From: Aminirod propionatiphilus
GTDB taxonomy: Bacteria; Synergistota; Synergistia; Synergistales; Aminithiophilaceae
Direction: 5' to 3'
DNA: 64,000 nt
Assembly (NCBI GenBank): GCA_018398915.1
Contig: CP074691.1
Location: 3,132,754 to 3,196,753 of the forward strand
Positions 51,586 to 60,880 of this stretch are shown one piece after another; positions within the stretch are counted from its first letter, which is position 1; every line of letters starts with the position of its first letter. The notes beneath the pieces were generated by a model. It searched no databases, was not told where the DNA came from, and was given only the letters and a program-made list of their open reading frames with translations. A program made the position numbers and the translations under genes.

Positions 51586-51614
51586 TTGAAGAGGAACGGC
51601 TCGGCGTCTACAAT
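51586..51614 (+). promoter_or_regulatory. Promoter of the riboswitch-controlled binding protein
   Basis: TTGAAG (51586-51591), a 17-bp spacer and TACAAT (51609-51614). Transcription would start about 15 nt before the structured leader. Confidence 0.7.
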
Positions 51615-51634
51615 CTTCTGGTCATTATTCATAC

Positions 51635-51735
51635 GCCTCCGAGCCCGACGGCCTAAAGGGACCTCCCCACGGCACCGGGCCGATAGGGTGGAGCCGGAAA
51701 CGGCTTCGCCTCCCTGCGGAAAGGAGGAAACCGGT
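51635..51735 (+). ncRNA. Probable molybdenum/tungsten cofactor (Moco/Tuco) riboswitch
   Basis: The leader has the outline I recall for the Moco RNA motif: CTCCGAGCC near the 5' end, a short stem CACC/GGTG (51673-51676 with 51687-51690), a GNRA hairpin GCCG-GAAA-CGGC (51693-51704), then TTCGCCTCCC and a closing GGAGG (51723-51727) pairing with CCTCC (51636-51640). A true intrinsic terminator follows at once, fitting an off/on switch. Moco RNAs control cofactor synthesis, molybdate/tungstate uptake and cofactor-using enzymes. The match is by eye; a covariance search is needed. Confidence 0.6.
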
Positions 51736-51746
51736 GCGGTCCCCGA

Positions 51747-51785
51747 GACCGGCTTTCCGTCGTTTCCGGAAAGCCGGTCCTTTTT
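51747..51785 (+). terminator. Intrinsic terminator of the riboswitch leader
   Basis: 13-bp perfect arms (51747-51759 with 51767-51779), a 7-nt loop and a run of T residues to 51785. It lies between the aptamer and the coding start, so it is the likely expression platform. Confidence 0.85.
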
Positions 51786-51867
51786 ATCCCCAGAAGGAGG
51801 TGCGACGGAAGGGGCGGGGACGGGAACCGCGACATCATCGACAGCCACAAGAGAGGGAGGATCTTCC

Positions 51868-53178
51868 ATGATCGGCACGTTCTCCAGAGGTTTCAGACGT
51901 CTTGTCCTTTCCGTTTTCTGCCTGTCTCTTCTCGCCGCCGCCGCCTTCTCGGCGACGACGGTCCGCGTCCAGGGCTCCATGGTGACGGAGAAATACTCTC
52001 TGGCCCTGAAGGAAAGCTACTCGGCCGCCCATCCCGACGTCGCCGTCGACGTCGCCACCGTCGGCAAAGACGGCGGTCTCATCAACCTCGCCGCCGGGAG
52101 CGCCGACATCGTCAACTCCACCCTCGCCCTCGCCGACCAGGACCGAGAGGAGGTTCTCGAGGCCATCGAGGCCGCCGAAGAGGCGGGTGTCGTCTTCACC
52201 GAGCTTCCCACGACGATCGACCCCGTCATCTTCTGCGTCAACCCCGACAACCCCGTCAGAAACCTCACCTTCGACGCGCTGCGCGACATCTACACGGGCG
52301 TCGTCACCAACTGGAGCGAGGTGGGCGGAGAGGACCGGGAGATCGTCGTCTGGATCAGCGACTACGACAGCGACAGCAAGATGCACGTCGTGAGCCGCGA
52401 CCTCCTGGCCGGACGGGCCCAGGCGCCGGGCGCCCGCGTGGACGCCAAGGGAAAGAACATGCTGACGGAGGTCTCCAACGACGTGGCCGCCATCGGCTAC
52501 GACAGCCGTTTCTACTGCCTGGCCGACCTGAGGGACAATCCGGCCAAGAAATTCGTCATGGTCGACGTGGGCCCCTCCGACGATCCCGCGCCGTCGGCCC
52601 CCTCGCGCAAATTCCCCGTGGCCCGTCACCTCTGGACCGTCTACCGCGAGGACATCTCGGACGAGGCCCTCGGTTTCCTCCTCTATTCCCTCTCTCCGGA
52701 GGGACAGAAGATCACCGCCTCCAACGACATGGTCCCCACCCTGGGAGCCATCGAGACCCTCGAGGTGACCTGGTGGGACGGCAGGGCCTACCTTCCCCTG
52801 CTGACCGTCGACGAGGCCCTCGGCGGCGCCATGGAGGCCTCCTGCGCCATGCCGGGCGAGAAGACCCTCTACGTCCGCAACAACAGCCGTTACGACGGCC
52901 TCGCCCTCCGGTGCGTCGCCGCCGACGGGACGGAGAAGGCCCTCGACGTGAGAGGGACCTTCCTCGACGGCGACTTCGCCGACAGGAGCCTTCCCATGGG
53001 CGAGGTCACCGAAATCGGCCTGCCCGACTTCGCCGCCGGCGACAGGCTTCACTTCACCTTCAACGGCCAGCCCGTGACCCTCACCTTCACCGGCGAGGGG
53101 TCGAGCGGCTGCAACGGCTTCGGGCCCCTTTCCCTCATCCTGCTCCTGCCCCTTCTGATCCTGCGACGCCCCTTCTGA
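51868..53178 (+). CDS. PstS-like substrate-binding protein with Synergist-CTERM
   Basis: A 436-residue exported protein: a signal peptide (1-29, A-A-A-F-S-A), a PBP-like-2 domain (30-280) opening T-T-V-R-V-Q-G-S-M-V-T with G-S-A-D-I-V-N-S-T-L-A and F-D-A-L-R-D-I-Y-T-G, and a beta-rich C-terminal domain (about 300-410). The end, G-S-S-G-C-N-G-F-G-P plus a Leu-rich stretch and R-R-P-F, is a Synergist-CTERM signal. The domain family includes phosphate, sulfate and tungstate binders. Its riboswitch points to molybdate or tungstate, but no ABC partner genes follow. ATG 51868 has GAGGGAGG 7 nt upstream. Confidence 0.85.
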   Translation: MIGTFSRGFRRLVLSVFCLSLLAAAAFSATTVRVQGSMVTEKYSLALKESYSAAHPDVAVDVATVGKDGGLINLAAGSADIVNSTLALADQDREEVLEAIEAAEEAGVVFTELPTTIDPVIFCVNPDNPVRNLTFDALRDIYTGVVTNWSEVGGEDREIVVWISDYDSDSKMHVVSRDLLAGRAQAPGARVDAKGKNMLTEVSNDVAAIGYDSRFYCLADLRDNPAKKFVMVDVGPSDDPAPSAPSRKFPVARHLWTVYREDISDEALGFLLYSLSPEGQKITASNDMVPTLGAIETLEVTWWDGRAYLPLLTVDEALGGAMEASCAMPGEKTLYVRNNSRYDGLALRCVAADGTEKALDVRGTFLDGDFADRSLPMGEVTEIGLPDFAAGDRLHFTFNGQPVTLTFTGEGSSGCNGFGPLSLILLLPLLILRRPF

Positions 53179-53199
53179 CGACGCTACGATGACGCCGGA

Positions 53200-53240
53200 G
53201 AGGGATGGAGGAGAAATTCCTCCATCCCTCTTTTATTTTT
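53200..53240. terminator. Strong intrinsic terminator between convergent genes
   Basis: 13-bp perfect arms (53200-53212 with 53218-53230), loop GAAAT, followed by TTTTATTTTT. It serves the binding-protein gene and, from the other side, may end the corrinoid-activation operon. Confidence 0.9.
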
Positions 53241-53283
53241 CCGCCGAGACCCTGGAAGGCCGGGGCGGAAAAGGAGATCCCCC

Positions 53284-55125
53284 TCAGGCCCCTCCCCGGC
53301 TCTCCAGGCGGAGGGCCTCGATGAAACGGTCCTGGAAGGTCCCCCGACCTTCGAGGTCGACCGACTCGGCTCGGTCGGCCAGGGCCTGGGCCTCGTCCCA
53401 GGCCTCCGGCCCCCCAAGGAGGACCGTCAGGGCCCCCTCTCCGGCTCCGTTGCCGACGGAGGCGATCCGGCCCCTCATCGCCTCGGGGAAAAGCCCCAGG
53501 GCCAGCAGCGATTCGGGACGGAGGGCGCCGCCGAAGGCCCCGGCCAGAAGGCACTCGTCGACGTCGTTCCAGGTCAGCCCCTCCCTGTCGAGAAGCTCTT
53601 CCATGGCGGCCTGGAGGGCCCCCTTGGCCAGCTGAAGCTGGCGGATGTCCTGCTGGGTCAGGACGAGAGTGCCCTGTTCGGCGGAGCCGAGGCGGATCCG
53701 CCGTCGGCCTTCGAGGCTTTCGACGCGCCGGGCCAGGCGGGGAAAGGGGATCGCCTCGCCGTCGGCGATCCTTCCCGAGCCGTCGACGGCTCCTTTCCGG
53801 ACCAGCAGGGCGACGACGTCGATGAGGCCCGGCCCGCAGAGGCCCTCGACGGTTCCGCCGCCGATGACGGAGAGGGCGATGTCGTCGTCCCGCCAGAGGG
53901 CGCCGTCGACGGCGCCGGGAAGGGCCACCATCCCCGACGAGACGTTCCCGCCCTCGAAGGCGGGGCCGGCGGCAGTGGAGCCGACGACGATCCGCTCGCC
54001 GACGACGAGGGCGATCTCCCCGTTGGTCCCCACGTCGACGAGGAGGCGTCTTTTCGGGGGAAGGGCGGCGGCGCGAACGAGGAGGCCCGTCATGTCGGAG
54101 CCGACGAAACGGCCCAGCAGGGGAAGAAAGCGGACCCGCGCCCACGGCGCGAGGGGAAGAGCGACGTCGCCGGCCCGAAGGGGCGGCGTGCGGCGCAGGA
54201 GAGGGGCGAAGGGAAGCCTTCCCAGCGTGACGGGCGAGAGCCCCAGGAAGAGGTGGTGCATGACGGCGTTGCCGACGAGGAGAACGTCGACGCAGTGGCC
54301 GACGTCGAGCCCCTCTCCGTCGGCCAGGGCGACGAGCAGGCGTCCCGCCTCGGCTCGGACCGAATCGGTCAGGGCCCGCAGAGAGGCGGCGTCGGCCAGG
54401 CCCCGGGCGATGCGGGAGAGGACGTCGCCGCCGTAGAGGGCCTGGGGATTCCGCCCCCTCAGGGCGGCCAGGACCCTTCCCCTCTCCAGGTCGACGAGGT
54501 AGGCGACAAGCGTCGTCGTGCCGATGTCGCAGACGGCCCCGAGAGGCCGGGCCCCCTCCCGATGGGGGAGAAAGCCGGCCAGGACGCCCCCTCGCAGGAC
54601 GGCCAGGAGGGAGGTCCGCCGGCCCGGCCGCAGACCGTCTCCGAGGGAGGCCGCCCCATCGAGGTTTCCCGCTTCGACGGCATGGCCCGCCCGGGCCAGC
54701 ATGGAGCCGATCCCTTCGAGGACGCTCGCCGACGGGGCCAGCTCGTCCCAGTCGAAGGAAAGGGGGACGAAGACCGTCTCCTGAACCGTCTTTCGAGCCT
54801 CTCCGTCGAAGGGAACCGTCCCGCCCCCTCCCGGGACGCCGAGGGTCACCGTCGCCTCCCCCGCGAGACGGGCGCGGCAGGCCAGGCGGATTTCTGCGGA
54901 CCGGGAGCCCAGGAGGGCTCTCTCCCCTTCGTCGGCAGGGGAGAGGTCTCCCGAGACTCTCAGGCGGCAGCCGCCGCAGAGCCCTCGGCCGCCGCAGGGG
55001 GCCTCGACGAAGAAGCCCTCCCGGCGGAGGACGTCGAGAAGGGTCTCGCCGACGGAGGCCTCGACGGTCCTTTCCGACGGGCCGAAACGGATCGTGAGGC
55101 GGCAGGAACGGCTGCTCTTGTCCAT
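53284..55125 (-). CDS. Corrinoid protein reductive activator (RACo/RamA-like, 2Fe-2S plus ASKHA)
   Basis: A 613-residue protein. The N-terminal 2Fe-2S ferredoxin domain (residues 1-95) has cysteines in A-P-C-G-G-R-G-L-C-G-G-C and a later L-A-C-R-A-R. A middle domain leads to a C-terminal ASKHA ATPase (DUF4445 type, about 200-600) with V-C-D-I-G-T-T-T, L-V-D-V-G-T-N-G-E-I and A-G-A-F-G-G. RACo proteins re-reduce cob(II)alamin to cob(I)alamin on methyl-transferring corrinoid proteins at the cost of ATP. ATG 55125 follows GGAGG by 9 nt. Last gene of the cobalamin-riboswitch operon; no corrinoid protein or methyltransferase gene is adjacent. Confidence 0.85.
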   Translation of the reverse strand: MDKSSRSCRLTIRFGPSERTVEASVGETLLDVLRREGFFVEAPCGGRGLCGGCRLRVSGDLSPADEGERALLGSRSAEIRLACRARLAGEATVTLGVPGGGGTVPFDGEARKTVQETVFVPLSFDWDELAPSASVLEGIGSMLARAGHAVEAGNLDGAASLGDGLRPGRRTSLLAVLRGGVLAGFLPHREGARPLGAVCDIGTTTLVAYLVDLERGRVLAALRGRNPQALYGGDVLSRIARGLADAASLRALTDSVRAEAGRLLVALADGEGLDVGHCVDVLLVGNAVMHHLFLGLSPVTLGRLPFAPLLRRTPPLRAGDVALPLAPWARVRFLPLLGRFVGSDMTGLLVRAAALPPKRRLLVDVGTNGEIALVVGERIVVGSTAAGPAFEGGNVSSGMVALPGAVDGALWRDDDIALSVIGGGTVEGLCGPGLIDVVALLVRKGAVDGSGRIADGEAIPFPRLARRVESLEGRRRIRLGSAEQGTLVLTQQDIRQLQLAKGALQAAMEELLDREGLTWNDVDECLLAGAFGGALRPESLLALGLFPEAMRGRIASVGNGAGEGALTVLLGGPEAWDEAQALADRAESVDLEGRGTFQDRFIEALRLESRGGA

Positions 55126-55214
55126 CGGACGCTCCCTCCTCGCGAAACGATCGTGGAGATCGGGACAGCCTCTCAGGGATGGGCCGTCGCGTCGGGGCCG
55201 GCTGCCGCGACGGC

Positions 55215-55895
55215 TCACCCCCGGCGGCGCCAGAGGCAGCTCTCCCTCAGGCGGCAGTCGCCGCAGAGGGAGCCGATCCGGTCGCCGCCGAATCCGGCAC
55301 CGAGGCCGACGGCCAGGGAGAGGCTCTTGAAGGGGCGAAGCAGGGCCTGAGGGGATAAAGAGACGCCGATCGACGACGGATCGAGAAAGGCGGCGATCTC
55401 CCTCTGCCCCTCGACGGACCATCCCTCGAGAGAGCCCGGCAGGAGGGCCGGTCCCGTCCCCAAGCCGAGCGATCGGGCCCATCCCTCGACGTCGCCGAAG
55501 AGCCGGGCCGTGAGGGCCTCCAGGGCCAGAGTGCCCGCCCCGTCGAGGATCGCCGCCCTCGGCGGATCCTCGTCCGCGAGGGCCCGGACCTTCTCCTCCA
55601 GGCCGGGGCCGATCGTCGCCAGGGCCAGGGCGACCCGGGAGGCTCCCGCCAGGAGGCGCCACCGGGGCCCGATGGAGAGACTTCCTCTGCGCCCGTCCAG
55701 GTCGAGATCGACGGCGCCGTCGCCGAGACGCCTCACGTCGGCGACGGTCCAGACGAAGGCCGGATCGAGAAGGCCCGCCAGCTCGGCCAGAAGGGACGAG
55801 ACAAGAGGCCGGAAGGCCTCGCGGCGCCTCCTCCCGACCCTCTCCAGAAGCCTTTCCGCATCGACGGCGACGACGACGTTCCTCTCTACCTTCAC
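55215..55895 (-). CDS. Protein related to the MetH activation domain
   Basis: A 226-residue protein with the central A-L-A-L-A-T-I-G, D-G-A-G-T-L-A-L-E-A-L and P-G-S-L-E-G-W-S-V-E-G-Q-R-E-I segments plus I-G-V-S-L-S-P-Q-A-L-L-R-P-F-K-S-L-S. These parallel the SAM-binding activation domain of cobalamin-dependent methionine synthase. It ends in a Cys-rich tail (S-L-C-G-D-C-R-L-R-E-S-C-L-W) that could hold a metal cluster. Stand-alone versions are found next to RACo-type activators. GTG 55895 is the likely start. Confidence 0.75.
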   Translation of the reverse strand: MKVERNVVVAVDAERLLERVGRRRREAFRPLVSSLLAELAGLLDPAFVWTVADVRRLGDGAVDLDLDGRRGSLSIGPRWRLLAGASRVALALATIGPGLEEKVRALADEDPPRAAILDGAGTLALEALTARLFGDVEGWARSLGLGTGPALLPGSLEGWSVEGQREIAAFLDPSSIGVSLSPQALLRPFKSLSLAVGLGAGFGGDRIGSLCGDCRLRESCLWRRRG

Positions 55896-56011
55896 GATCC
55901 TTCATCCCCTTCCGGCAAAGACTACCACCGGGGCCTCCCCTGAGGGAAACCCCGGCGGTTCCTCGCTCGGTCCGGGAAAGCCCGGCCGGGCTAGGCGACG
56001 GGCCCTCAGGC

Positions 56012-57994
56012 TCAGAACTTCCAGAGGAGGCTGACCAGCCAGGTCCTCCCCTGGAGGGGATACCAGGCCAGCCCTTCGGCCCCGCTCGTGGGGACGAAGG
56101 TCATCTCCTTGGACTTGTCGAAAAGGTCGTTGACGCCGACGGTGAGGACCTTGTCGTCGTCCAGGTTCCAGCTCAGGCCGGCGTTGACGACGGTGAGGTC
56201 GCTGTAGCAGACCGTCTCGCGCTGATCCAGGTAGTTGTCGCCCGTGTAGTCCACCTCGCCGAAGAGACGGAGCCGCTCCGAGGCGGCATAGGCCAGACGG
56301 GCGTGGACGGCGCTCTCGGGGCGGTTGGGCAGCCTCTTGTCGTACTGGAAGCTGTCGGCCGTCTTGTTGAGGGCCCTCATGTAGGTGTAGGAGAGGGTCA
56401 GGTCCCAGGGATGACGGATGAAGCGCGTCTCCAGCTCGACGCCGTCGATCTCGGCGTCGCTGACGTTCTGGTACTGGCCGTAGCGGGGGTTGATCATGAT
56501 GAACTCGACGAGGTTGTCCACCTCGCTGTGGAAATAGGTCAGGCCGACGCGGGTTTCGACGGACCGCCACGCTCCCTTCCAGTGGAGCCCCAGGTCCCAC
56601 TGGCTCCCCTCCTCCCAATCGAGCTTCTCGTTGGGCAGGATGGTGGCGCCGTCGCCGTAGAGCTCGTAGAAGTTGGGCGCCCGGTGGTACCGGCCGAAGG
56701 AGGTCTTGAGGCGCCAGGCGGGAGCGAAGAGCCAGTCGGCGGCCAGAGACCAGGAGAGGTGTCCCTCGCCGTCGACGTCGTTCCACTTCAGCGTCGGGAC
56801 GGCGACGAGCGTCCCCGCCCTGTTGAGGGTGATCGAGTCCTGAAGGGAGAGGTCGATCTTGTCCCGTCCGAAGCGGCTCTTGCCCCCCAGGTTGTCCACG
56901 ACGTCTCCCTCGACGTCCAGATTCTCGCGGGAATAGGTCCCGAAGAACTCCAGGTAGTGATCGAGGCCGACGGGAAGCGAGGCCGAGAGGGAGAGGAAGT
57001 CCCTGTCCGATTTGTAGAGGTTGTGGAGGTCGCCGTACTGGCCCAGGTAGTTGTAGGGGTTGAAGAACTCCTTCTCCTGCTCCAGATGGCCCGCCTGAAG
57101 GCTCATGTCGACGTCGCCGACGCGGAAGGTCCGTCCCAGGGCGACGTCCCACTTCTCCGTCTCCAGGCGGGTCCCGTCGCGCTGCGAGCTCCTCTTGTCG
57201 TTGCCCGGAGCCTGAAGGGGCAGGTCGCGCGTCCGGTCCTGCCAGGAGAAACGGGCCGTCCAGGCGTCGCGGCTCCACTTGAGGAGCAGGTTGCGCTGGT
57301 CCCAGCCGTTGTTGAGGCGCGTCGCCTCGTAGTCGTCGTTGCCGTTGTAGGGTGTGCCGTTGTCGTTGAGGTAGGAGAAATCGCCGTCGCTGCCCGAGAA
57401 TTCCGTGGCGACGAGGAGGTCGCCGCCCAGAAGGGGCGTGGCGTAGCGCAGGGCCGAGCGATACTCGCCGTACTCTCCCAGCCCGACCAGGAGGGAGCCC
57501 TGGGCCCTTTCGGGGGCCACGGTGACGATGTTGATGACGGCCCCCATGCCCGAGACGCCGAAGGCGGCCGGGACGTGGCCCCGATAGACCTCGATGCGGG
57601 CCACGTTCTCGACGGGAATGGTCGCCAGGTCGACGGCGGCCTCGCTCTCGAGGTTGGCCAGGACGCCGTCGACGTAGACGGCTACCTGGGCCGACGTGCT
57701 CCCCCGGACGGAGGCCACCGTGTAGCCGCCCCGTCCCTGGGTGCGGATGACGTGGACGCCCACGGACTGGTCGAGCAGCTCCGGCAGGGTCTTGAACTCG
57801 CCGCGGACCTCTTCGGGGACGATGACCGTCACCGCTCCGGGAGAGACGTCCTGATCCTCGTCGCCGAGGGCTCCGGCCGTGACGAGGACCGAAGGCAGCT
57901 CCGTCACGGCCTCGACGGGGCGGGCCCCGAGGCCCAGGACGACGAGGGCCGCCGCCGCCAGCAAGGGAATCCTTCTTCTCATGGTCTGCGCCAT
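56012..57994 (-). CDS. btuB: TonB-dependent cobalamin receptor
   Basis: A 660-residue outer-membrane receptor with a signal peptide (cut near residue 30), a TonB-box-like stretch (L-P-S-V-L-V-T-A), a plug domain (about 45-165, with R-T-Q-G-R-G-G-Y, V-A-V-Y-V-D-G-V and R-I-E-V-Y-R-G) and a 22-strand barrel ending in an aromatic C-terminal Phe. The BtuB assignment is helped by the cobalamin riboswitch at the head of the operon. ATG 57994 or 57982 could be the start. It proves the cell has an outer membrane. Confidence 0.88.
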   Translation of the reverse strand: MAQTMRRRIPLLAAAALVVLGLGARPVEAVTELPSVLVTAGALGDEDQDVSPGAVTVIVPEEVRGEFKTLPELLDQSVGVHVIRTQGRGGYTVASVRGSTSAQVAVYVDGVLANLESEAAVDLATIPVENVARIEVYRGHVPAAFGVSGMGAVINIVTVAPERAQGSLLVGLGEYGEYRSALRYATPLLGGDLLVATEFSGSDGDFSYLNDNGTPYNGNDDYEATRLNNGWDQRNLLLKWSRDAWTARFSWQDRTRDLPLQAPGNDKRSSQRDGTRLETEKWDVALGRTFRVGDVDMSLQAGHLEQEKEFFNPYNYLGQYGDLHNLYKSDRDFLSLSASLPVGLDHYLEFFGTYSRENLDVEGDVVDNLGGKSRFGRDKIDLSLQDSITLNRAGTLVAVPTLKWNDVDGEGHLSWSLAADWLFAPAWRLKTSFGRYHRAPNFYELYGDGATILPNEKLDWEEGSQWDLGLHWKGAWRSVETRVGLTYFHSEVDNLVEFIMINPRYGQYQNVSDAEIDGVELETRFIRHPWDLTLSYTYMRALNKTADSFQYDKRLPNRPESAVHARLAYAASERLRLFGEVDYTGDNYLDQRETVCYSDLTVVNAGLSWNLDDDKVLTVGVNDLFDKSKEMTFVPTSGAEGLAWYPLQGRTWLVSLLWKF

Positions 57995-58013
57995 CCTCTC
58001 GCCTATCGTCCCG

Positions 58014-58053
58014 AAAGAGCCGGGACGGCCCTGCCGCCCCGGCTCTTTTTTTT
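58014..58053. terminator. Hairpin between the propeller gene and btuB
   Basis: 11-bp arms (58014-58024 with 58038-58048) around a 13-nt loop. The T8 run is on the plus strand, where no gene ends; on the minus strand only CTTT follows. For the operon it may act as a partial terminator that lowers btuB relative to the first gene. Confidence 0.55.
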
Positions 58054-58079
58054 CAGCTATAGCCCGTCTCTTCCGGGGC

Positions 58080-59390
58080 CTAGCGCCTGCCCGAAAGAAG
58101 GAAAAGGGGCACGAGGAGGAGCAGGCCGGCGGGGACGAAGCCGCCGTTGCAGCCGCCGCTCGAGCCGCCGCTGGGACGGAGGATCTCGCCGGAGAAGCTC
58201 AGGCCCGCCGCGGGAAGAAGATCGTAGGGATTGCCGCCCAGATCGGTGGCCTCGTAGGCCCTCAGGAGGGCCCCCGCCCTGTCGATCGTGACGGCGGCGT
58301 AGCTCCCCTCGACCCAGAAACGGTCCGTGGCGCCGTCGAAGAAGAGGGTGCCTCCGAAGCCGATCCCCAGGCCGTAGGCCACCTCCGAAAGGTCGACCTC
58401 CTTGTCCTCCCAGAAGTCGTCGGCCAGGGCCGCCGCCTCGAGTCCGCCGACGGTCGTCCGGTAGATCAGGGTCGGGTTCAGCCAGTTCGACGAGGCCACA
58501 TTGACGAGAAGGGCCCCGTCGGAGGCGACGGCGAGACCGCAGTAGCCGTAGGTGGTGTCGGGAAGGGCCGAGCCGTCGTCGATGACGGTGGCCGTGAAGG
58601 CCGTCAGGTCCACCTTGACGAGGGAGGGCTCGAGGGCGCCGACGTAGCCGCCTCCGAAACAGGCCACGTAGAGGGCGTTGCCGTAAAGGGCCATGGCGGC
58701 CTTCGTGACGGAGCCGCCGGGGTTCTTGCCCACGTTCAGGCTGTCGACGACGGTCATGTCGGGGAGGGAGATCTTGTAGAGTCGCCCGGCGTCGTAGGTG
58801 AAGGTGCCGTCCACGTCGGAGACGAGGGCGTAGAGGTAGCCGTCGACGATGCGGAAATCCTTGACCTGGTCGGTGAAGGCGTCGCCGTCGTCGAAGGAAA
58901 GGGTCTCGACGGGCTCGACGTCGGCCGTCCCGTCGAGGAAGTCCTCGATGTCATACTGCTCGATCGATCCCGCCCGGAGCCCCGTGTTGCCCCAGTTGGC
59001 CACGTAGAGGTAGTCGCCCTCGACCTGGGCCTGCTGGATGTTGTCGCCGAAGGCCTTCTGGGCGACGGGTCCCGACCAGTCCTCTCCGGGGTAGAGGCTC
59101 ACCGTGTCGGCCGTGCCGCTTCCCTTGTACTCGCGGAGGAGGATCTTCTTCTCGCCCCAGATCTCGACGACGAAGCCCATGGGATCGCCGCCCAGGCCCG
59201 TGACGAGGTTCTTGGAGATCACGTCGGGGCTGGCCACCTCGATCGTGCCCAGCGCGGCCGCCGTGTAGGTGTTGTCGACGGTCAGGAAGACGGCGTCGGC
59301 ATCGGTCAGGGCGGCCCAGGAGGTCCCCGCCGTCAGGGCGAAGACGAGGGCCAGGAGCAGGCTCCAGCGGAACGTTCCGGTTCGTTTCAT
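58080..59390 (-). CDS. Synergist-CTERM surface protein, propeller-like, under cobalamin control
   Basis: A 436-residue protein with a signal peptide (1-26, ending S-W-A) and no trained family match by eye. The body has repeated strand patterns such as D-Y-L-Y-V-A-N-W-G, G-Y-L-Y-A-L-V-S-D-V-D-G, G-N-A-L-Y-V-A-C-F-G-G-G and R-L-Y-K-I-S-L-P, as expected of a six- or seven-bladed beta-propeller. The C-terminus G-G-S-S-G-G-C-N-G-G, a hydrophobic stretch and R-R form a Synergist-CTERM. ATG 59390 follows GGAGGAG by 8 nt. First gene after the cobalamin riboswitch and directly before btuB, which suggests a surface corrinoid-binding role like Bacteroides BtuG. Confidence 0.8.
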   Translation of the reverse strand: MKRTGTFRWSLLLALVFALTAGTSWAALTDADAVFLTVDNTYTAAALGTIEVASPDVISKNLVTGLGGDPMGFVVEIWGEKKILLREYKGSGTADTVSLYPGEDWSGPVAQKAFGDNIQQAQVEGDYLYVANWGNTGLRAGSIEQYDIEDFLDGTADVEPVETLSFDDGDAFTDQVKDFRIVDGYLYALVSDVDGTFTYDAGRLYKISLPDMTVVDSLNVGKNPGGSVTKAAMALYGNALYVACFGGGYVGALEPSLVKVDLTAFTATVIDDGSALPDTTYGYCGLAVASDGALLVNVASSNWLNPTLIYRTTVGGLEAAALADDFWEDKEVDLSEVAYGLGIGFGGTLFFDGATDRFWVEGSYAAVTIDRAGALLRAYEATDLGGNPYDLLPAAGLSFSGEILRPSGGSSGGCNGGFVPAGLLLLVPLFLLSGRR

Positions 59391-59433
59391 TTCACACACT
59401 CCTCCTCGAACGGTTGAAGGCCTCGGACCAACG

Positions 59434-59455
59434 AAAAAGGCCCCTCTCGGGGCCT
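59434..59455 (-). terminator. Intrinsic terminator of the cobalamin riboswitch
   Basis: On the minus strand, AGGCCCC, loop GAGA and GGGGCCT are followed by TTTTT. It lies between the aptamer and the first gene. Confidence 0.85.
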
Positions 59456-59474
59456 CGGACGCGAAACGAACGGC

Positions 59475-59675
59475 CTCCCCGGCCCTCGAGGGAGACAGTC
59501 GCCGGAGAGGTTTCGGTATCCGGACTCGGGATCGCCTTCGGCGCGCCTCACCGACCGAGCCGGTTGCCTCGCGCGCCTCGTCGCCCTCACCGTAGCGGGA
59601 CTGTGCCGGATTCTCACCGGCTTCCCGAAAGATCTCTCCCCATCTTCTTCCGAATCAGGCCTCAGGCCTCTTCGT
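59475..59675 (-). ncRNA. Cobalamin (adenosylcobalamin-type) riboswitch
   Basis: The minus strand carries the conserved core GCCGGTGAGAATCCGGCACAGTCCCGCTAC-type sequence (59592-59622 on the plus strand), one of the most recognisable riboswitch cores. It is followed by purine-rich GGCGACGAGG and a B12-box-like end near 59490-59520. It should fold on binding cobalamin and cause termination at 59434-59455, shutting off uptake and activation genes. Confidence 0.93.
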
Positions 59676-59683
59676 CGTGAATA

Positions 59684-59712
59684 AAAATAGGTCCAGCGCC
59701 CCGGCAAGTCAA
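59684..59712 (-). promoter_or_regulatory. Promoter of the cobalamin riboswitch operon
   Basis: On the minus strand, TTGACT (59707-59712), a 17-bp spacer and TATTTT (59684-59689). The start near 59677 is at the beginning of the aptamer. Confidence 0.8.
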
Positions 59713-59746
59713 GGACCACTTCATGGTCAAGACCCGTCTTTTTGTC

Positions 59747-60880
59747 CTATCGCCTCTCGATCCTCTCCAGAACCTCGACGGCCACCGTCCGTCCCGCCTC
59801 GGGTCGGGCCAGAGAGAGGGCGCACCGACGGAGGCGGGCCCTCTCGGCCTCGTCGGCCAGAAGGGTCTCGGCCTTGATGCGGGCCGTCCTGTAATCGAAG
59901 AGGACCCGCGCCGCCCCCCTGTCGAGGAGGTAGTCGCTGTTGCGCTGTTCCTGGCCCGGTATGGGGTCGACGATGACCATGGGCGTCGCCGTGCAGAGGA
60001 TCTCCGACGTCGACAGCCCCCCGGGCTTGGTGAAGATGAGGTCCGAGGCGACGTAGTGATTCTCGATGGCGTCGACGAAGCCGGAAACCCGGAGCCTCGT
60101 CACCCCGCCGAAGCGCTCCTCGAGGCGGGAGCGCACCTTCGCGTTGTTGCCGCAGACGGCCAGGACCGTCAGATCTCCGTCGAGAAGGGAGGTGATGACC
60201 TCCTCGAAGGGGCCGACGCCGATGCCTCCTCCCATGACGAGGACGACCCTCTCCTCGTCGGCCAGATTCAGGGCGGCGCGGGCCTCGGCCTTCGACGGGA
60301 GAGAACCGTAGCGGGGCGACACGGGAATGCCCGAGACGACGACGCGGTCCATGGCGATGCCGTCGGCCCCGTACTGGAGGGCCGTCTCGTCGCTGGCGAC
60401 GAACCAGCCCGTGAAGGGATGGTGGCGGTGGAAAAGATGGCTCAGGAAGTCGGTGTTGACGTAGAAAACGGGACGGCGGGGCAGCAGGCGCTCGGCCACG
60501 GCGGCGGCGCCGAAGAAATGGGTGAAAAGAAGGGCATCGGGGTTGAAGGCCTCGAGACGCTCGATGAGACGGCTCAGATGGAGCCTCTCCGTCAGCTCGT
60601 TGAGGGTGGCCACGACGCCGTCGGCGGCCTCGGGCTCGTCGAGGCTGTCGTAGAAGTAGCCCCAGAGCTGGGGGGCCCGACGGACCATCTCCAGATAGGA
60701 TCGGGTGTAGAGTCCCCGGACGAGGGCGTTGGTGAAGTCGAGCGTGTCGAGACAGAGCGTCTCACAGTCGGGAGACTCCCTTTCGAACCAGCGGGCCAGG
60801 GCCAGGGCCGCCGTCTTGTGGCCCGTTCCGGCCGAGGCGTAGAGCAGGGCAACTCTTCGTTTCCGCCCTTGAATCACCAT
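59747..60880 (-). CDS. GT28 family glycolipid glycosyltransferase (MGDG synthase/UgtP-like)
   Basis: A 377-residue GT-B enzyme. The N-terminal S-A-G-T-G-H-K-T-A-A is the MGDG-synthase/UgtP loop, and the C-terminal half has V-M-G-G-G-I-G-V-G, K-P-G-G-L-S-T-S-E and D-P-I-P-G-Q-E-Q-R-N for nucleotide-sugar binding. It probably transfers a sugar to diacylglycerol or a related lipid. ATG 60880 follows GGAGG by 7 nt. It is downstream of the TIM-barrel and TRIC genes on the same strand. Confidence 0.88.
   Translation of the reverse strand: MVIQGRKRRVALLYASAGTGHKTAALALARWFERESPDCETLCLDTLDFTNALVRGLYTRSYLEMVRRAPQLWGYFYDSLDEPEAADGVVATLNELTERLHLSRLIERLEAFNPDALLFTHFFGAAAVAERLLPRRPVFYVNTDFLSHLFHRHHPFTGWFVASDETALQYGADGIAMDRVVVSGIPVSPRYGSLPSKAEARAALNLADEERVVLVMGGGIGVGPFEEVITSLLDGDLTVLAVCGNNAKVRSRLEERFGGVTRLRVSGFVDAIENHYVASDLIFTKPGGLSTSEILCTATPMVIVDPIPGQEQRNSDYLLDRGAARVLFDYRTARIKAETLLADEAERARLRRCALSLARPEAGRTVAVEVLERIERR

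Follow-up and report, generated by a model that had tools for sequence, protein, structure and literature searches.

Locus and regulatory elements

The locus described here occupies positions 53284-59712 of a 64,000-nucleotide (nt) stretch of contig CP074691.1 from Aminirod propionatiphilus (Synergistota); the whole of this stretch is referred to as the window. The host genome consists of one contig of 3.2 Mb, in which nine cobalamin riboswitches were found. All elements of the locus lie on the minus strand and follow one another in the 5' to 3' direction as a promoter match, a cobalamin riboswitch, a terminator-like hairpin, the gene of a propeller-like protein (gene 1), the gene of a TonB receptor (gene 2), a MetH-activation-like gene (gene 3) and a RACo-type gene (gene 4). 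An earlier, sequence-only reading of the window had placed a riboswitch, a Synerg-CTERM protein, a TonB receptor and the two activation genes in this order, which was borne out by RF00174, TIGR04564, Pfam and profile searches. The features that head the locus and those of genes 1 and 2 are as follows.

59684-59712, minus: sigma-70-like promoter match TTGACT-17-TATTTT (9 of 12 consensus matches; consensus match only)
59492-59686, minus: cobalamin riboswitch aptamer RF00174 (61.7 bits, cut-off 31.5, E 7.5e-13, full model)
59437-59456, minus: terminator-like hairpin with a T-run, between the aptamer and gene 1
58080-59390, minus: gene 1, putative BtuG-like propeller protein, 436 residues, predicted to be secreted, Synerg-CTERM (family profile, models, Foldseek)
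59313-59390, minus: signal peptide, residues 1-26 of gene 1 (read from the translation, cleavage site by eye)
58086-58163, minus: Synerg-CTERM sorting signal, residues 410-435 of gene 1 (TIGR04564, 26.0 bits, cut-off 22.5)
58011-58046, minus: GC-rich hairpin without a U-run, between the propeller and BtuB genes (minimum free energy -33.2 kcal/mol, z -4.8)
56012-57994, minus: gene 2, BtuB-like TonB-dependent receptor, 660 residues (PF00593, E 6.5e-38; PF07715, E 1.4e-15)

The region 53000-60000 was scanned for promoter and terminator patterns. Two sigma-70-like sites were found against 0.1 expected from shuffles. The RF00174 score lies above the cut-off of the model, and the aptamer is accordingly classed as a cobalamin riboswitch. 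Terminator-like sites numbered seven against 3.5 expected (standard deviation 2.2), and 7 of 200 shuffles of the hairpin stretch fold equally well, so that the hairpin alone is not significant. This hairpin is a possible candidate for the expression platform of the riboswitch. The intergenic gaps between genes 1 and 2, 2 and 3, and 3 and 4 measure 85, 116 and 89 nt, respectively, and a single transcript across the four genes is plausible from this layout.

On the other strand, a Moco (molybdenum/tungsten) riboswitch at 51625-51742 (plus) heads the gene of a PstS-like binding protein with a Synerg-CTERM tail at 51586-53178 (plus). This protein is a second riboswitch-linked candidate for surface capture and adjoins the propeller operon.

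Propeller protein: sequence comparisons

The start of gene 1 (59390) was read from the sequence. Its product matched no Pfam family, and TIGR04564 scored above its cut-off at the C-terminus. Searched singly, the protein matched 42 of 185 Synergistota genomes, some of them at the C-terminal tail only. A family profile (A2) was then prepared from 24 members of the gene 1 family and detected members in 63 of the 185 genomes at E <= 1e-10. Compared with 177,635 distinct PDB sequences, A2 gave 8ptf, 8ptd and 8blw_B as its top three matches (E 2.3e-9 to 4.1e-8). The Foldseek titles of 8ptf and 8ptd name BtuG, and 8BLW is given as the BtuB1G1 complex in passages of Abellon-Ruiz et al. (2023; PMC10404256). 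The best stretch aligned between A2 and the BtuG chains comprises 66 residues, and the matches span short repeat stretches. 8ptf is titled BtuG2, yet its A2-aligned stretches resemble those of 8ptd (titled BtuG1) and 8blw_B.

An internal repeat (residues 90-148 against 200-262, 90% probability) was found by comparing windows of the profile with the whole. RecA-chimera PDB matches from the single-sequence search with gene 1 were rejected; they cover 32 residues and no stretch passes alone. Propeller domains of the family also occur in open frames of about 700-1200 residues with much extra sequence (L067 5371-8928, L071 2-2848 and L066 1-2124).

Propeller protein: predicted structure

AlphaFold models were calculated from low-depth alignments of two sequences, the window protein and a 66%-identical relative (L033). 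With the window protein as the query, the mean predicted local distance difference test score (pLDDT) was 56.2 and the predicted template-modelling score (pTM) 0.66; with L033 as the query, the values were 65.5 and 0.75. Both models consist mostly of strands in a repeated pattern. As to the number of blades, the strand pattern repeats, but the N- and C-terminal parts mostly have pLDDT values below 50 in both models.

In Foldseek searches against the PDB, BtuG chains took ranks 2, 4 and 5 with the first model (window protein) and ranks 5, 6, 7, 10 and 17 with the second (L033); BtuG1, BtuG2 (BT1954) and BtuG3 (BT2095) are all represented. The models suggest a beta-propeller that leans to BtuG. 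The propeller-like fold that had been proposed for 58080-59390 is therefore supported by two low-depth models with BtuG among the best solved matches. A search of a viral structure library with the model listed propellers of viruses and phages, none of which bears on B12.

Receptor and conservation of the gene pair

The best NCBIfam model of the gene 2 product is the vitamin B12 receptor TIGR01779 (E 4.9e-43); its score of 147.6 bits lies below the equivalog cut-off of 599.7, and the protein is described as BtuB-like.

For the survey of the pair, the 94 A2 rows were reduced to 92 members by merging two row pairs (G102:C213 and G143:C34). L033, a duplicate of L035, was left out, and so was L069 because it had no match in the A2 genome list. 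Removal of the 13 weakest or most fragmentary members left 79 strong members in 52 genomes. A receptor was counted as adjacent if it was similar to the window BtuB, on the same strand and within 1.3 kb; riboswitches were taken from whole-genome searches of the 63 genomes.

A BtuB-like receptor adjoins 58 of the 79 strong members, in 47 genomes; the propeller-BtuB pair is thus conserved in Synergistota, as the sequence-only reading requires. The propeller gene comes first in 36 of the pairs and the receptor gene in 22. Of the 58 pairs, 41 are preceded at no more than 1.5 kb by a cobalamin riboswitch of the same strand; four of the remaining 17 reach the contig end within 200 nt.

Distances in the propeller and receptor trees are correlated (r 0.889 over 53 pairs, five of the 58 having been dropped as short or interrupted), and none of 2000 permutations gave a value as high. 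The permutation ignores shared ancestry, which is better allowed for by exchanging partners within a genome: exchange of two paralogue partners lowered r in each of the nine genomes that have at least two usable pairs, by less than 0.002 in two of them.

The hairpin between genes 1 and 2 was followed in the gaps of the surveyed pairs, those shorter than 30 nt being left unscored (15 propeller-first, three receptor-first). Values of z < -2 were obtained for 10 of the 21 scored propeller-first gaps (median -1.97), for 5 of 19 receptor-first gaps (median -0.02) and for 15 of 120 random windows; a hand-picked set of gaps gave five of six. The hairpin behind the propeller gene is enriched in propeller-first gaps and is not universal. 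Hairpins of this type are known to protect the message ahead of them; that of the window may do the same for gene 1, or it may attenuate the message of gene 2.

Two further arrangements were noted. A cluster of four family members, all inside 25 kb, occurs in genome G036 (1326623-1351183); a single BtuB-like receptor adjoins the last one. In G100 (L039 2371-7477 and L065 455-5514) a cobalamin riboswitch is followed by genes for 4Fe-4S, 2-hydroxyglutaryl-CoA dehydratase D-like and BadF-type ATPase proteins and then by a propeller gene at the contig end; Pfam was applied to L039 only. This gene set possibly encodes an ATP-driven corrinoid reductase.

Surface anchor and charge

No lipobox was found in the window propeller by pattern; a Synerg-CTERM tail, one of 12 found in the host genome, is present instead. 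The anchoring signal thus differs from that of BtuG, as had been expected from the sequence-only reading. Tails and charges were surveyed in 68 members not cut by the end of a stretch, one of which (G037) is a misread frame; one frameless row was dropped. A Synerg-CTERM-like tail was recognized by a simple pattern in 63 of the 68. TIGR04564 matched 14 of the 24 family members, and the protein of G098 is counted by pattern yet has no TIGR04564 match.

The five members without such a tail are the misread row and the proteins of four genomes of family f11 (Synergistota, outside the order of the window's species). In each of the four, a hydrophobic run terminates in WGC and leads into glycines or nearly so; this resembles a lipoprotein signal, apart from the W, which is unusual at that place. 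In the f11 genomes TIGR04564 gave one match, in G002; G001, G003 and G004 are absent among the matches listed. When three of the lipoprotein-like proteins were compared with the window family, they matched it at 95% probability (E 2.7e-8). Because the f11 relatives carry a lipoprotein-like N-terminus in place of the CTERM tail, the surface anchor seems to have been exchanged within Synergistota, being lipoprotein-like outside the window's order and Synerg-CTERM inside it.

By count of K, R, D and E, the propeller domain is net negative in 65 of the 68 members (median -16, window protein -36). For BtuG2, a charge of -18 is thought to attract the vitamin, according to passages of PMC10404256.

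Genes 3 and 4

The two remaining genes of the locus are as follows.

55215-55895, minus: gene 3, stand-alone MetH-activation-like protein with a C-terminal cysteine motif, 226 residues (profile A3, matching 1j6r)
53284-55125, minus: gene 4, RACo-type corrinoid reductive activator with 2Fe-2S and ASKHA domains, 613 residues (PF00111, PF17651 and PF14574 above cut-off)

No Pfam or NCBIfam model matched the product of gene 3, and PF02965 (MetH activation domain) was not among the matches of 15 members of its family. A profile of these 15 members (A3) matched the PDB entry 1j6r, 'methionine synthase', with E 4.2e-9 and full MetH chains in the PDB weakly (E 0.02 and above). 1j6r is TM0269 of Thermotoga maritima. 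The title of a cited paper names TM0269 as necessary for the reactivation of Thermotoga MetH. Gene 4, whose start was read from the sequence as the ATG at 55125, is of the RACo type, with Fer2, RACo middle and RACo C-terminal domains all above cut-off.

The only S-methyl_trans match of the host genome (G000, 2636961-2637761) belongs to its MetH, a protein of 843 residues with methyltransferase, pterin and both B12 domains, lacking the activation domain and adjoined by an MTHFR gene. PF02965 was not found in the host genome. Passages of Price et al. (2018; PMC5764234) attribute, by inference, the reactivation of B12 in a range of bacteria to DUF4445 (RamA-like) proteins; the MetH of one of these bacteria is devoid of the activation domain. 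In view of the 1j6r match, the MetH without an activation domain and the DUF4445 inference of Price et al., genes 3 and 4 probably reactivate the host MetH.

In the fetched stretches, a gene 3 relative was found near the propeller in 6 of 63 genomes (G000, G021, G105, G109, G111 and G121) and a RACo-type gene in three (G000, G021 and G121). The four-gene order occurs, among these stretches, only in the species of the window (two genomes). The proposed tie between uptake and corrinoid reactivation thus fits the domains of genes 3 and 4 and the gap in MetH, and although the combination of genes recurs, the order of the four was seen, in these stretches, in this species only. Genes for a periplasmic binding protein and an ABC ATPase are among those that follow the receptor in G105, together with a gene 3 relative. 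In G121 (L042 2292-5379) RACo-type and gene 3-like genes lie divergently, upstream of a riboswitch-propeller-BtuB operon.

Interpretation and alternatives

Genes 1 and 2 likely code for a capped B12 transporter, with a propeller that works like BtuG. After export, the propeller would be anchored on the outer surface through its Synerg-CTERM tail, where it would bind corrinoids and cap the BtuB-like receptor as a lid. The lid would capture cobamides and hand them to BtuB for TonB-driven import, and plentiful cobalamin would turn the operon down through the riboswitch. More message for the lid than for the receptor may result from the hairpin that follows the propeller gene. In the species of the window, the operon would also yield the stand-alone MetH activation protein and the RACo-type reductive activator, which would restore the oxidized corrinoid of the MetH without an activation domain to a functional state.

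Several observations weigh against this interpretation. No BtuG chain was found in the single-sequence PDB search with gene 1 up to E 10. The fourth PDB match of A2 is a kelch protein (E 3.8e-6), a Pfam kelch model matches 5 of the 24 family members (best E 3.9e-5) and PF16819, which we take to be the BtuG-type domain, reaches only E 0.15, in one of the 24. The similarity of the family to BtuG is real but distant; it may reflect homology, but because of the kelch matches and the weak PF16819 match, part of it may be common to propellers in general. The profile of the three lipoprotein-like f11 relatives finds WD40 proteins in the PDB and no BtuG, and the idea that these relatives would find BtuG on their own was therefore rejected. 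The models were built on two sequences, with the low mean pLDDT values given above; the first Foldseek rank is held by Atg18 for one model and by Sec12 for the other, and for the first model Escherichia coli YncE gives higher TM-scores (0.52/0.61) than 8ptf (0.48/0.53). The charge counts cover members of the family only. Among the strong members, 21 of 79 have no adjacent receptor; for eight of these a contig end lies no more than 300 nt away, and for 13 it is more distant. Of the 13 weak members left out, nine have no adjacent receptor and four have one, bringing the total over all 92 members to 62. The corrin-ring gene cbiC is present in 31 of the 52 strong-member genomes (hand count), that of the window included, and therefore the lid is not confined to auxotrophs; a relation between the family and loss of corrin-ring synthesis was rejected, the overall frequency of cbiC being 107 of 185.

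Propellers are often enzymes, and the gene 1 product might act at another step at the surface, such as the release of corrinoids from carriers or the enzymatic processing of cobamides before BtuB, with no lid involved. The long frames with much extra sequence (L067, L071 and L066) and the 21 strong members without an adjacent receptor would suit such a role, which we nevertheless consider unlikely, since the pairing in both gene orders, the co-variation of the trees and BtuG as the best PDB profile match suit a lid better. Less likely still is a general capped TonB transporter like that of XusB, with a ligand that is corrinoid only in part, the riboswitch-linked pairs being one subset. XusB structures do appear at Foldseek ranks 27 and 32 for the second model, and a riboswitch within 1.5 kb is lacking for 17 of the 58 pairs, but 41 pairs have one, in four of the 17 the contig stops within 200 nt, and among NCBIfam models the window receptor scores best with that of the B12 receptor. 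That an unrelated surface or adhesion protein came to lie in a B12 operon by chance is very improbable: Synerg-CTERM proteins are varied, with 12 such tails in the host genome, yet the adjacency in 47 genomes, the occurrence of both orders and the tree correlation already make coincidence unlikely. A BtuG-like lid on the receptor is thus retained as the preferred interpretation of the pair.

A conserved, BtuB-linked and mostly riboswitch-controlled propeller in Synergistota would carry the BtuG picture into a further phylum. One group of Synerg-CTERM proteins thereby gains a suggested function and partner, and their tail would, if the interpretation is right, serve to display transporter lids at the cell surface. 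The question of whether a transporter lid needs a lipid anchor becomes testable.

Comparison with known systems

According to passages of Wexler et al. (2018; PMC6143338), BtuG homologues occur exclusively in Bacteroidetes, as judged by BlastP criteria in 313 human gut strains; a search of this kind would miss distant relatives of BtuG. Lipoprotein-capped TonB transporters are described as apparently exclusive to Bacteroidetes in passages of Abellon-Ruiz et al. (2023; PMC10404256). A 2026 paper (PMC13398666) reports, in the passages available, DUF4465 B12-binding proteins in eight bacterial clades, with 40% of one large DUF4465 cluster beside PF16819 propellers, the phyla of which are not stated in these passages. 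Its argument there that surface B12 scavenging is not unique to gut Bacteroides lowers the surprise of the present interpretation somewhat; its main text contains no word beginning 'synergist'. No paper on a propeller-BtuB pair of Synergistota was found in the open-licence literature, as judged by titles and the starts of abstracts. On balance, we lean towards the view that the lids of TonB-B12 transporters are not restricted to Bacteroidetes and are widespread in Synergistota, where one surface anchor has been exchanged for another.

The window protein resembles BtuG1-3 of Bacteroides thetaiotaomicron in its modelled propeller fold, its gene next to btuB, the cobalamin riboswitch, its acidity and its best PDB profile matches. 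It differs in belonging to another phylum and in that BtuG is not found by single-sequence search. BtuG has a lipobox and a Bacteroidetes export signal, whereas the window protein has a Synerg-CTERM tail and an ordinary signal peptide; BtuG binds corrinoids tightly and forms a complex with BtuB, whereas the window propeller is known here from sequence and single-chain models. The window protein should not be classed as BtuG proper, since the lipoprotein signal is absent and corrinoid binding is a property that we infer.

XusB, the xenosiderophore-binding lipoprotein of Bacteroides fragilis, is the partner of a TonB receptor and is among the Foldseek matches of the second model, but its ligand is a siderophore and it is a lipoprotein. 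The window receptor shares the plug and barrel with BtuB (TIGR01779, its best NCBIfam model), but scores below the cut-off of that model and is paired with a propeller. Gene 4 shares the Fer2, RACo middle and C-terminal domains with the RACo/RamA-like (DUF4445) activators and differs from them in its place in a B12 uptake operon and in its predicted target, MetH. Gene 3 is closest by profile to the MetH reactivation protein 1j6r, which is likewise separate from MetH, and is distinguished from it by the C-terminal cysteine motif, the RACo-type neighbour and the lack of a PF02965 match.

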